From contig JAFUXT010000017.1 in assembly GCA_017470815.1 (NCBI GenBank), forward strand, positions 1-64,000: a stretch of DNA of 64,000 nucleotides, written 5' to 3'. Shown in pieces: positions 40,768-60,095 of the stretch. The notes below the pieces were generated by a model. That model saw only the letters and a program-made list of their open reading frames with translations. It did no database searches and had not been told where the DNA came from. Within the stretch, counting starts at the first letter, position 1. The number at the start of each line of letters is the position of its first letter. The position numbers and the translations under genes were made by a program. Origin of the DNA: a bacterium (GTDB lineage: Bacteria; Cyanobacteriota; Vampirovibrionia; Gastranaerophilales; Gastranaerophilaceae).

Positions 40768-41100
40768 ATGGGATTACTGGTAGCAACAATTCAAAGACGC
40801 CAATTAAGGATGGAAAGATCCAATCTGCAATTCCAATTATTGTTGATTACCAAGGCAATTTCACAGGCGCAAAAATCTACAAACGAACTTATGCAGGTCG
40901 GAACTGATTATGAATCGGATTCTTTGATTACCAAACGTTTACAGGAAAGACAATACAAGTTCAAACTTCTTGAAGAATCTTTGGGGTTACAAAAAGAAGA
41001 AATTCAAACAAGATTACAAGAAATTGACACCGAATTAAAATCAGTTGATGAAATGATTAAGGGTGAAATTCAGGATTTGTTCTCTTACGGCAGTAAGTAA
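40768..41100 (+). CDS. Small coiled-coil protein
   Basis: 110 residues, almost entirely heptad-like helix (LRMERSNLQFQLLLITKAISQAQ, then LEESLGLQKEEIQTRLQEID), ending in a short Gly-containing tail (FSYGSK). The layout parallels the genes at 3131 and 59763: N-terminal coil, central Tyr/Asp patch (VGTDYESD), second coil and terminal strand. I treat it as a third, more distant member. It follows the 90-residue gene by six bases. Confidence 0.7.
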   Translation: MGLLVATIQRRQLRMERSNLQFQLLLITKAISQAQKSTNELMQVGTDYESDSLITKRLQERQYKFKLLEESLGLQKEEIQTRLQEIDTELKSVDEMIKGEIQDLFSYGSK

Positions 41101-41871: not shown

Positions 41872-42804
41872 ATGGAAACAATTGAAATTAGTAATATAGA
41901 ATCTTTGCCTTGTGGTGCAAACCCTCATCAGAGTGCAGGTATTTCAAAAATATCTGACGGTGTGGAGTATGAAATTTTAAGCAGAAATAAAGATTTAGAG
42001 TATATTGATTATATAAATTTATCAGAAAACATAAAACTTTTGGGCGAATTTTTTGATGTCAATTCCGCTGTAATTGCAAAAGAAGGTTTTATATGCGCAG
42101 TTGCGCTTGGCTCAAGTATTGATGATGCGTTTGCAAAAGTCATGGATTCGGATCCTGTTTCTATTACAGGTTCAAGTGCAGGCTTTTCAAAGGAAGTAAC
42201 TCTTGAAGTCGCAAAACTTTTAAAATCGCTAAAAATAAAAAATGTAATCTCTGTTAAATTTTCAAAAGATGCATTTTCGTATCTTTTAGATACTGATATC
42301 AATATGATTTTAATAAAAACACCGCTTCATGAATTGCAGGGATTTTGTGCAAAAGATATAAAAGTTACTCCGTTTGGAATTTTGGTTCAGGAGCAGAATA
42401 CAAGCAAACTTTCAAAAGAAAATTTTAAAGTTGTATCAGTTGCAAAACCGACTCAGGAACAGGCAGAAGATGCTGTTTTTGGCTGGAAAGTTTCAAAGCA
42501 TTTAAAATCTGCATCAGTTGTAATTGCAAAAGATTTATGCGCAAAAGCAATAGTGCAGGGACGTTCAAATATGGTGGTTGCCGTCGAAAGTGCAATGGAT
42601 TTGGCATGTGAAAATTCAAAAGATGCAGTAATGGTGCTTGATTGTCCGATTGAAACTTCGCAGGTTTTAAATACCGCTATTCAGGGCAGAATTGGCTTGG
42701 TTGTAGAATCCGGAGATTGCAATATATCCGGAGATATTTTAAAACAGGCAGATAAATACGGAATATCAATGATATTTACCAAAATAAGGAACAAGAGGTA
42801 TTAA
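41872..42804 (+). CDS. AICAR transformylase-like protein lacking catalytic residues
   Basis: 310 residues related to the C-terminal formyltransferase domain of PurH. GANPHQSAG near residue 16 and PTQEQAEDAVFGWKVSKHLKSASVVIAKD match that domain. GRIGLVVESGD, followed by KYGISMIFTKIRNKRY, matches its end. The IMP cyclohydrolase domain is missing. The catalytic K-H-x-N-P-C-G is replaced by AKEGFICAVALG, and G-G-I-V-A by SITGSSAG. Enzymatic activity is therefore doubtful; it could be a regulatory paralogue. It is monocistronic, with GAGAGGATATGT before the ATG. Confidence 0.75.
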   Translation: METIEISNIESLPCGANPHQSAGISKISDGVEYEILSRNKDLEYIDYINLSENIKLLGEFFDVNSAVIAKEGFICAVALGSSIDDAFAKVMDSDPVSITGSSAGFSKEVTLEVAKLLKSLKIKNVISVKFSKDAFSYLLDTDINMILIKTPLHELQGFCAKDIKVTPFGILVQEQNTSKLSKENFKVVSVAKPTQEQAEDAVFGWKVSKHLKSASVVIAKDLCAKAIVQGRSNMVVAVESAMDLACENSKDAVMVLDCPIETSQVLNTAIQGRIGLVVESGDCNISGDILKQADKYGISMIFTKIRNKRY

Positions 42805-46890: not shown

Positions 46891-48984
46891 TTAAATTTTT
46901 TCAAAATCAGAAATGGATGGGTCTAATAATCTTCTGCCGACATTTTCAAAGTCTATTGAGCAAAGAGTTTTGTTTCCGTATTTGATGATTTTTTCAACGG
47001 TGCCGTTTCCGTATCTTGGGTGGGAAACTTTATCTCCGGCTTTGAAACCGATGTTTTCATCCGCAACATTTTCTCCGTCTTCAGTATCATAAACAGGCAC
47101 TACAGGTGGAGTATTTTCTTCATCTTCGTCAGTATCAAGAAAATCGTCGGCAACTTCATCGCCCGATTGAATTTGTCCCGAATTTTCTATCAAATCCAAA
47201 TCATCTTCGGTTAATTGTTCGGATGTCTCATCATCCTGCGGAAAATCTTCAACTTCGTTTTGTTGTTCTGTTTCTTCGCTTTCGGAATGGAAATCATTCA
47301 TAAAGGACAAATCATCTTCATCTTCATCTTCAGCCGTTTCATTCTCCTGCGAATGTACTTCTTGAATCACATCTTCATTATCTTCAATCTGTTCAAAAGT
47401 TTCCGTTTCTGATTCTGCTTCTGTTACGGGTTCTTCATCCTCATTATCGGCTAAAATATTTTCTATTTGAGGTTCGTTTTCAAGCGCATGTGAAACTATT
47501 TCTTCCTGTGGAACCTCTTCGTGAATATCCTGTTGTTCTATTTGTTCTTGCTCTTGTTCCTCTGTACCAAAATCTTCAATATCTTCTTCGGAGATATTTT
47601 CAAAATAATCTTCCTGTGTCTGTTCTTCCATTATTTCTTGTGTCGGAAGTTCCTCAACGGGAGCAGGAGTAGGTGCTTCCTGCAAATTATTTATTGCATA
47701 AATATCATCATTTGATAAAAGGTCTTCTTCTATTGCAGGAACAAATCTTTGTCTGTCTCCGAATACATCATCTTTTGTCAAATCAAGTTCCAAATCTTCA
47801 AGGGTTATAATAAGCGGGATTCCCTGTGTAAGATTTCCGTAAATAATTCCTTCTGACGGATTTAGTTTATTTAAAAATGTATTGTATGCCGCAAAATCGT
47901 TTTGCATAGTTTGAAGAGCAAATAACAATATGTTTTGAGCGTGAGATTTTAATTCGGATGCATATTTATATAAATGACTTGCAAAGAACGTTGTAAATAC
48001 ATGATTATGATTTATCAATCGTTTTACAAGTTTTTTATCCGAATTGTCGTCAGTAAGAGGTACAAAATAATATACATATTTATCAAATGTTTCAATTATT
48101 TTGTGAACATAATTTATAATTTCTCGTTGCAAATCGCCGTTTGCTTCTTTTATATTAATTACAATACAGTTTCTTTCTTTAAGTTTTTGTTCAAGTTGCT
48201 TGTATTCATCAGGTTCGTTTGCAAAAATCCCTGCATCTTTGTATTTTAAAAGTTTGTTTTTTAGCAGGGCAAGTTCAGGCATTTGTGTTTCTTTATATTG
48301 AGCCGTAACGACATCTATAAAACTTTCTATCGGCAAAAATTCATCATCGAGAGTTTTGATATACTGTTGTACTGCGTAGAATATATCTTGTATAATCGCT
48401 TTTGTAGCCGCATCAACTTTTTTTAAATCGTGTTCAAATATAAAATCAATAAATCCCGAATTGAGCGGAAGTTTAAAATCTTTGCTTAATGTAATTCTCG
48501 GGTATTCTTCAAATAGGTCGTCACAATCAATAATTACGCTTTTTTCTTTCATTCTGAACAGTTGTCTTACGCAGTTAGAAATAACAGTTGATTTTTCATA
48601 ATCAGTTTCACAAAATACTGTAAAATTATGTTCAAAAATAGAAATATCCACATTCAATTCGTCATTACAACCTGAAATTTGACCGATTTTTAATGCAGTA
48701 TCAACGGGTAATAAATCAAGGAGTTCATTTGCCGGCAATTCGACAATATTACTGTTAATACTTGGGGCAGAACCGTCGTATTCGCTGACTACTCCTTCTG
48801 CATTGAAAGAAAACATAAGTTTTGCAACTGCAAAATTGTTGATATTATCCGCTTTAAGGTTTACATATTGCGCAACATAAGATTTTTCAACACCGGTCAG
48901 CGCAATAAACTGACCTAAAGTCGGTCTTTCATTTTCTTCGTATGACAGTTTAATTAAGTTATTTCGTATTTCGATTAATTTCAT
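46891..48984 (-). CDS. Large protein: degenerate ATPase-like core, acidic linker, Tudor-like end
   Basis: 697 residues. Residues 1-430 resemble a P-loop, HerA-like layout: VFCETDYEKSTVISNCVRQLF where Walker A would be but without its G-x-G-K-S, and an IDCDD strand. Residues about 430-645 are an extremely Glu/Asp/Gln-rich disordered linker. The last 45 residues (GDKVSHPRYGNGTVEKII) match the Tudor-like domain at the C-terminus of PcrA/UvrD helicases, which binds RNA polymerase. A transcription- or repair-linked scaffold is plausible. GAGGGC precedes the ATG. No family is assigned with certainty. Confidence 0.65.
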   Translation of the reverse strand: MKLIEIRNNLIKLSYEENERPTLGQFIALTGVEKSYVAQYVNLKADNINNFAVAKLMFSFNAEGVVSEYDGSAPSINSNIVELPANELLDLLPVDTALKIGQISGCNDELNVDISIFEHNFTVFCETDYEKSTVISNCVRQLFRMKEKSVIIDCDDLFEEYPRITLSKDFKLPLNSGFIDFIFEHDLKKVDAATKAIIQDIFYAVQQYIKTLDDEFLPIESFIDVVTAQYKETQMPELALLKNKLLKYKDAGIFANEPDEYKQLEQKLKERNCIVINIKEANGDLQREIINYVHKIIETFDKYVYYFVPLTDDNSDKKLVKRLINHNHVFTTFFASHLYKYASELKSHAQNILLFALQTMQNDFAAYNTFLNKLNPSEGIIYGNLTQGIPLIITLEDLELDLTKDDVFGDRQRFVPAIEEDLLSNDDIYAINNLQEAPTPAPVEELPTQEIMEEQTQEDYFENISEEDIEDFGTEEQEQEQIEQQDIHEEVPQEEIVSHALENEPQIENILADNEDEEPVTEAESETETFEQIEDNEDVIQEVHSQENETAEDEDEDDLSFMNDFHSESEETEQQNEVEDFPQDDETSEQLTEDDLDLIENSGQIQSGDEVADDFLDTDEDEENTPPVVPVYDTEDGENVADENIGFKAGDKVSHPRYGNGTVEKIIKYGNKTLCSIDFENVGRRLLDPSISDFEKI

Positions 48985-49050: not shown

Positions 49051-49647
49051 TTAATTAACATTTATTGATTTTTGGAGATTATTATAAATTTCAATAGTCA
49101 GTGGACAAATTTTTAAATCTCTGTCAACAAGACTTTTTATAGTTTCTTTGTAACATCCCAAAATGGCTTTGTTTAATCCATTTTCACTATATAAATCTTT
49201 TGTAATTTTATTTCTGTATTCCTTACTTCTTGTGCGTAGTTCAATTTTATCTGCAAGAAAAATAATTTTTTCAAAATCAGTCATATTTATTTTGCCCAAA
49301 GTATGCCATCTGATTGATGAAAGCATTTCTGCATCTTCAAGCCCAAAAACTGTTTTTGCTATGTAATAACTGCCAGGAGCATGAAGTGTTTTTTTGTTTG
49401 AGCGTTCGTCAGAATCGACATCATCAAGATATTTGTCTATAATTTCAAGTAACTTTTCATCGCTAAAACACTTTGCGCAGTCATGTAAAAGTCCGGCAAT
49501 ATATGCTTTTTCTTCATTTTGCCCAAATTGTTTTGCAAGTTCTTTTGCACATTCCGCCGTACCAAGTGAATGTTGGTATCTTTTTTCGTTAAGATTTTCT
49601 TTCAGCCATTTGTCGGCTTCTTCCCGACTAAGTTTTATATAATCCAT
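49051..49647 (-). CDS. yqeK: HD-domain symmetrical Ap4A hydrolase YqeK
   Basis: 198 residues with an HD metal site: RYQHSLGTAECAKELA (first His), GLLHDCAKC (His-Asp), and a later RWHTLG and ADKIELRTR. The family hydrolyses Ap4A to ADP. The ATG at 49647 is chosen over an upstream TTG. It overlaps the end of nadD by 20 bases, the usual nadD-yqeK pairing; rsfS, often third, is absent here. Confidence 0.92.
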   Translation of the reverse strand: MDYIKLSREEADKWLKENLNEKRYQHSLGTAECAKELAKQFGQNEEKAYIAGLLHDCAKCFSDEKLLEIIDKYLDDVDSDERSNKKTLHAPGSYYIAKTVFGLEDAEMLSSIRWHTLGKINMTDFEKIIFLADKIELRTRSKEYRNKITKDLYSENGLNKAILGCYKETIKSLVDRDLKICPLTIEIYNNLQKSINVN

Positions 49648-50224
49648 TTTTTGCAATATATTCCTTTACACTGTTATTTATAAAACCGTCAATATTTTGT
49701 CCGTTTTTAATTTTTTCTCTCAATTCCGTTGATGAAATATCTTCAAAAGAAAGTTCATCAAAAATGAAATCATAACCTTTGTCTTTTAAATAATTATACT
49801 CTAAAGACGAAAAATTATTTTCTCTGATAAAAACCGTAAATTTAACAAGTTTTTTTAATTTATCTGCCTCATACCAATTTTCAATATCCTTAAACGCGTC
49901 CGTTCCGATAATGAAATTTATTTTCCCCTCTATTTCGTATTTTTTATAAAGTTCGCAAATAGTCAGATATGTATAAGATTTACCTTCTCTTTTATATTCA
50001 ATATCTGACACTTCAATTTTAGAATTATGTTCATCTTCAATAGCAAGTTTTACCATATTAAGTCTGTGCACACTCATATTATCATCATAATTTTTATGCG
50101 GTGGCTTGTAGGCTGGAATGAACAGGAGTTTATCAAAATCGTATTTATTCAACACATATTTTGCTACTCGCAAGTGTGCATTATGAATAGGATTAAAAGT
50201 CCCTTGAAAAACACATAATTTCAT
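49628..50224 (-). CDS. nadD: Nicotinate-nucleotide adenylyltransferase
   Basis: 198 residues. The nucleotidyltransferase motif GTFNPIHNAH is at 9-18, and FIPAYKPPHK and IIGTDAFKDIENW follow. ISSTELREKIKNG matches the family's I-S-S-T-x-I-R motif. It makes deamido-NAD. Directly followed by yqeK. No ribosome-binding site; the -10 box lies six bases before the ATG. Confidence 0.96.
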   Translation of the reverse strand: MKLCVFQGTFNPIHNAHLRVAKYVLNKYDFDKLLFIPAYKPPHKNYDDNMSVHRLNMVKLAIEDEHNSKIEVSDIEYKREGKSYTYLTICELYKKYEIEGKINFIIGTDAFKDIENWYEADKLKKLVKFTVFIRENNFSSLEYNYLKDKGYDFIFDELSFEDISSTELREKIKNGQNIDGFINNSVKEYIAKNGLYKT

Positions 50225-59762: not shown

Positions 59763-60095
59763 ATGGCATTTTTAGCATTAGCAAGTCAAAAAAGTTTACT
59801 CAACTTGCAAAAAAACTTTTTACAGTTGCAGTACACATCAATTATGAATCAGACTCAAGCGGCAGAAGCACAAATGGCAGCAATCAAAAAATCACACAAT
59901 GGTGAAACTGATTATGATGAATCTGAAGATGCAACTTATTTGTACTATGAGCAGTTAGATGAACAATTGAGTTCGGAAAAAGACTCTATTGATACTCAAA
60001 TGACTGCAATAGAAAACGAAATTTCTTCATTAAAAACACTTGTAAACAACAATGTAAAATCTGCTTGTACTTTGAACCTTGCATCAGGCGGTTAA
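59763..60095 (+). CDS. Small coiled-coil protein (paralogue of 3131)
   Basis: 110 residues. Residues 4-40 form a Leu/Gln coil (SQKSLLNLQKNFLQLQ). The centre has TDYDESEDATYLYYEQ, then a second coil (ISSLKTLVNNNVK), then CTLNLASGG. The order and the NNxK-strand-Gly ending match the gene at 3131. No known family. AAGGAGACGAGATT precedes the ATG. The promoter region is also shared with 3131, so both probably belong to one regulon. Confidence 0.78.
   Translation: MAFLALASQKSLLNLQKNFLQLQYTSIMNQTQAAEAQMAAIKKSHNGETDYDESEDATYLYYEQLDEQLSSEKDSIDTQMTAIENEISSLKTLVNNNVKSACTLNLASGG

Follow-up and report, generated by a model that had tools for sequence, protein, structure and literature searches.

A locus in the window (the whole stretch of 64,000 nucleotides of Gastranaerophilaceae DNA analysed here) raises the question of what a protein may do that joins an ATPase-like body with no P-loop to an acidic stretch and a helicase-type Tudor domain. 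This architecture, pointed out in the initial annotation, was confirmed in a single minus-strand ORF, here called pHerA (Table 1). The ORF is a genuine gene and not a chance reading frame, because it was matched in 59 of 59 relatives and because dN/dS is low in both folded parts: in comparisons with four of five homologues, it was 0.007-0.07 in the N-terminal domain (N-domain) and 0.02-0.05 in the Tudor domain. Values against the fifth homologue, L006, were higher (up to 0.12) and partly saturated.

Table 1. pHerA, its parts and the two genes upstream: positions in the window
Feature	Position	Strand	Basis
pHerA, complete gene (697 aa) with degenerate HerA, acidic linker and Tudor	46891..48984	-	ATG start; matches in relatives
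HAS-barrel-like N-terminus, residues 1-95	48700..48984	-	Collinear with HerA N-terminus (profile-profile alignment from query column 10)
RecA-like HerA core lacking catalytic motifs, residues 96-400	47785..48699	-	E 6e-12 against HerA; 4d2i; DUF87 in 13/33 members
CETDYEKS, residues 125-132, at the place of HerA Walker A (GSTGSGKS)	48589..48612	-	Profile-profile alignment
Acidic variable linker, residues 425-645	47050..47712	-	Composition and low genus conservation
Conserved linker island LTEDDLDLI, residues 591-599	47188..47214	-	Conservation profile; dN/dS comparison
Conserved island PPVVPVY before the Tudor, residues 626-632	47089..47109	-	Pattern in 40/46 proteins tested
PcrA/UvrD-type Tudor, residues 646-697	46894..47049	-	PF21196, predicted model, structural neighbours
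yqeK-like gene, upstream of pHerA	49051..49656	-	TIGR00488; order kept in home family
nadD-like gene, upstream of pHerA	49628..50224	-	TIGR00482; order kept in home family

Profile comparisons give good support to the assignment of residues 1-400 of pHerA as a degenerate HerA over their whole length. In the hhalign comparison with canonical HerA proteins, and in those with distant families described below, the N-domain was used by itself. Aligned with 10 canonical HerA proteins, the N-domain gave an hhalign probability of 97.5 (E 6e-12, score 98.4, 403 columns), compared with 18.8 for the best of 20 column shuffles, and the alignment ran from the HAS-barrel through the C-terminal strand. With a 33-sequence alignment as query, the PDB matches were HerA 4d2i (E 1.1e-7) and 8ziq (E 0.018). 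Similarly, Pfam DUF87 was found in 13 of the 33 family members (best 2.5e-9), the window protein itself being unmatched. Two weak matches of the N-domain, to SepF (E 0.099) and to KGGVGR-ATPase (E 0.48), were dropped. The fold assignment rests on profiles because the AlphaFold2 model of residues 1-416, computed from four near-identical sequences, was poor (pLDDT 36.8, pTM 0.24).

In HerA (4d2i, 8ziq) as in pHerA, a HAS-barrel is followed by a RecA-like core and a C-terminal segment, but pHerA lacks the Walker A and EEAH motifs and has the linker and the Tudor in addition. Neither Walker A (G-x4-GK[ST]) nor an EEAH-type motif (Walker B/catalytic) was present in any of 67 family rows (65 distinct proteins), or in any of 10 distant members; the HerA Walker A aligned onto CETDYEKS. 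The HerA/FtsK-like N-terminal layout without a P-loop that had been claimed from the letters alone is therefore borne out as that of a degenerate HerA, and the profiles relate its fold to P-loop ATPases. Full-length retention of the HerA fold, together with the low dN/dS of this domain, could be read to mean that it still binds nucleotide, or forms a regulated HerA-like ring round DNA, despite the loss of the canonical motifs. The absence of Walker A and EEAH from all members tested argues against this reading, which we hold to be the least probable of those considered here.

Beyond the N-domain, 38% of 237 residues are D or E and 1% are K or R in the window protein, and about 220 residues are very acidic, in agreement with the huge acidic linker of some 215 residues first described. 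Across 37 rows, the linker had a median of 33% D/E and 2% K/R; it was acidic in every case, while its sequence varied and its length ranged from 174 to 613. Mean genus conservation was 0.22 in the linker (residues 425-625) compared with 0.66-0.81 in the domains, and a linker dN/dS of 0.23-0.35 indicates a weaker constraint than in the folded domains. Two islands, LTEDDLDLI and PPVVPVY, are conserved within it; of the six proteins without the PPVVPVY pattern, one is a PcrA. Constant acidity with variable sequence and length, and the presence of the two islands, would suit a decoy. Proteins that bind DNA would then be sequestered by the tether and the dead HerA fold, or these would cap a nuclease that binds HerA, and the Tudor would serve only to set the location. 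We regard such a decoy as improbable, as constraint is strongest in the Tudor and in the HerA-like part, not in the linker, and as no nuclease gene was found beside pHerA among the neighbours scanned in the window (nadD, yqeK, a GNAT, fmt, def, chorismate mutase and cysK; the GNAT-like ORF lies downstream of pHerA), whereas HerA has a nuclease or effector gene alongside.

The C-terminal domain is well supported as a PcrA/UvrD-type Tudor, by family profile and by predicted model. PF21196 matched residues 650-685 with 22.5 bits (E 1e-4) in the protein scan, just under the 23.9-bit cut-off, and with 26.6 bits, above this cut-off, in the genome scan. The best of five predicted models had a pLDDT of 85.6 (range 45.3-85.6), and its closest structural neighbour by Foldseek and VIA-align was 7egs_B, a structure of the UvrD C-terminal domain with the RNA polymerase (RNAP) lobe (E 3.9e-5, Z 9.7, rmsd 2.0 over 55). 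The PcrA Tudor 5dma came next (Z 8.9, rmsd 2.1 over 52), followed by CarD 4l5g_B (Z 7.9) and unrelated small barrels (about 7). CarD_TRCF_RID (PF02559) reached 15.8 bits on the Tudor end (E 0.015) against a cut-off of 23; the CarD/Mfd RNAP-interaction domain has a Tudor-like fold, but resembles the pHerA Tudor less than the PcrA/UvrD type does, in sequence as well as in structure. The helicase-type Tudor end initially proposed hence models and aligns as a PcrA/UvrD Tudor. With the C-terminal Tudors of PcrA and UvrD (5dma, 7egs_B, 7egt_B), that of pHerA shares the fold, the RNAP-binding residues and a flexible linker ahead of it; the difference lies in the body, which consists of SF1 helicase domains in PcrA/UvrD and of a dead HerA in pHerA. 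No SF1 helicase core was detected in pHerA, the Pfam and NCBIfam matches being to the Tudor end only and the P-loop being absent.

The PcrA Tudor is a docking domain. One study reports a severe reduction of RNAP binding for each of the mutations H681A, W684A, K712A and L714A in a PcrA Tudor (PMC5397179). In the pHerA family, H and Y were present in all 75 rows caught by the Tudor pattern, a count that is conditional on the pattern, as it demands H/N and Y/F/W/L/M/I at two places. The four other rows of the 79 were L075 (T for H), L038 (cut short), L048 and L064; in the last two, H and Y were seen by eye. [KR]RL was present in 71 of the 75 rows and was uncaught in four, L055 being masked (N) there. 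We tentatively take R684 and L686 of pHerA to be the equivalents of PcrA K712 and L714, judging from the PcrA sequence and from the spacing given in PMC5397179.

Among 21 PcrA proteins of the window's own order, 18 have A or P at the equivalent of L714 and the other three, all from family f3, keep the leucine, compared with 31 of 31 PcrA proteins outside the order that keep it (L232 was unmatched, L237 was not counted because it is the pHerA of G094, and L238 and L239 gave an identical reading). In the home family, M or L replaces the equivalent of W684 in 10 of 11 PcrA proteins. It was observed that the PcrA Tudor of the order (families f1-f7; host copy at G000:C34:27662-27805) is without residues reported necessary for RNAP binding. 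Three further families of the class, f9, f14 and f15, have both a PcrA and a pHerA with an intact-looking Tudor; a hand-over of the Tudor role from PcrA can therefore not be general.

These residues bear on a transcriptional reading, in which docking of the Tudor on RNAP would place the dead HerA body at DNA under transcription. The closest structural neighbour of the Tudor, a UvrD domain with the RNAP lobe, and the conservation of the RNAP-binding residues speak for it. According to a second study, however, the PcrA Tudor docks on the motif [VIL]-D-x-x-T-G-E-[VIL]-[VILT] in UvrB as well as in RpoB, so that PcrA-type Tudors have partners other than RNAP (PMC8318588). This motif was found in none of 27 RpoB fragments of the phylum, of which 15 came from pHerA-bearing genomes (28 genomes were queried, two gave no RpoB, and the 27th fragment is the host's own). 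The host UvrB carries IDQISGEII, a near match with S for T (one genome). Of the initial interpretation, both structural readings stand; the step from Tudor to transcription is partly weakened by the RpoB and UvrB results, and we consider a transcription tether of this kind unlikely.

The distribution in related genomes, which had been proposed as a check, was determined at three levels. The host is probably a relative of the Cyanobacteria from gut or rumen (Gastranaerophilales). The pHerA gene is single-copy and core throughout the order: besides the 59 relatives, a phylum sample searched with the N-domain profile gave matches in 107 of 244 genomes, all within the window's order and with one match apiece. 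A class sample gave some match in 120 of 146 genomes, those outside the order being mostly to the Tudor end of PcrA. One home-family genome, G149, lacked a pHerA match in the class sample and in the phylum sample. No match was found in viral contigs, phages or plasmids, and a mobile or viral origin of pHerA was rejected.

Diverged forms of pHerA, alike in layout and with no Walker A, are present in f9, f14 and f15. They were counted via a second Tudor protein in the genome; G124 (f9) and G137 (f15) gave no second match. Pooled, the three families matched the home-order profile with a probability of 98.3 (E 1e-14; shuffles at most 15.3), rows L068 and L072 having been left out as incomplete. 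Taken singly, they gave probabilities of 96.9 (f9), 58.6 (f14) and 47.1 (f15) against the same profile. Against canonical HerA, single families matched weakly (1.1 for f9, 0.2 for f14 and 4.1 for f15), and the pooled set reached 65 (E 6e-5).

A HerA-like ATPase with a P-loop was found in 58 of the 146 class genomes, all from f8, f11 and f12, and in none from f1, f9, f14 or f15; in this sample, pHerA and the P-loop ATPase exclude each other by family. Neither was seen in f10 and f13, and three ATPase-bearing genomes (G062, G131 and G183) had a second Tudor match. In the sister families f8 and f12, the ATPase is a DUF87 protein of about 545 aa from the taxonomic class in which pHerA is also found, but it has a P-loop and is not the nearest HerA of pHerA. 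Descent of pHerA from it was unsupported (hhalign probability 2.2, score 26.8 compared with shuffles of at most 21.6). The ATPase set from same-phylum genomes gave a probability of 0.8.

A canonical HerA (GSTGAGKS) is encoded separately in the home-family genome G268, behind a 369-aa ORF (L183, G268:C2:65300-68600). On several named plasmids, SIR2 or DUF4297 genes precede relatives of this HerA, and for this reason the HerA and the 369-aa ORF look like a defence pair.

The order nadD-yqeK-pHerA was found at 15 of 15 home-family loci listed. Elsewhere in the order, outside the home family, these two genes were not seen beside pHerA, and no repair operon surrounds pHerA in the home-family neighbourhoods. 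Two further loci of the order that were scanned, L037 and L040, have a divergent ComM-like gene (Mg-chelatase, ChlI) upstream. In the loci scanned from f9 and f15 (L062, L066), the upstream gene is RarA/MgsA-like and the downstream gene encodes a class I tRNA synthetase. A defence role for pHerA was set aside by inference, because the gene is single-copy and core and has housekeeping neighbours.

Taken together, the probable role of pHerA is that of an adaptor without catalytic activity, acting in repair or in transcription. Its dead HerA-type body, joined to the Tudor by a flexible acidic tether, would work without ATP. The Tudor would dock on partners that PcrA engages by its own Tudor, most likely UvrB, with RNAP as a possible partner through another contact; through the tether, the dead HerA body could keep DNA or another protein close at hand. 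In the home order, docking by the PcrA Tudor appears to have passed to pHerA. We tentatively favour this fuller version, that of an ATP-independent adaptor whose Tudor took over PcrA docking, more probably on UvrB than on the known RNAP site, while rating it at somewhat less than an even chance. A more far-reaching account, in which a DNA translocase became a motorless scaffold with a captured PcrA Tudor, and in one order took over the docking network of PcrA as the PcrA Tudor eroded, leaving an enzyme-less repair or transcription adaptor, is rather doubtful.

We found no description of such an adaptor or architecture in the literature searched. If the adaptor reading is true, a single-copy core pseudo-HerA that carries the docking domain of a different enzyme would be a case of a motor recycled as a scaffold. 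It also raises a testable question, namely which partner a PcrA/UvrD Tudor has in a phylum whose RNAP is without the known docking motif.

Other features of the window were recorded. Two 110-aa ORFs about 19 kb apart (40768-41100, with no clear family, and 59763-60095) are helical and appear alike in kind. At 41872-42804 (+), a 310-aa protein matched the AICARFT/IMPCHase profile only at positions 71 to 309, and so looks like a shortened purH-type protein.
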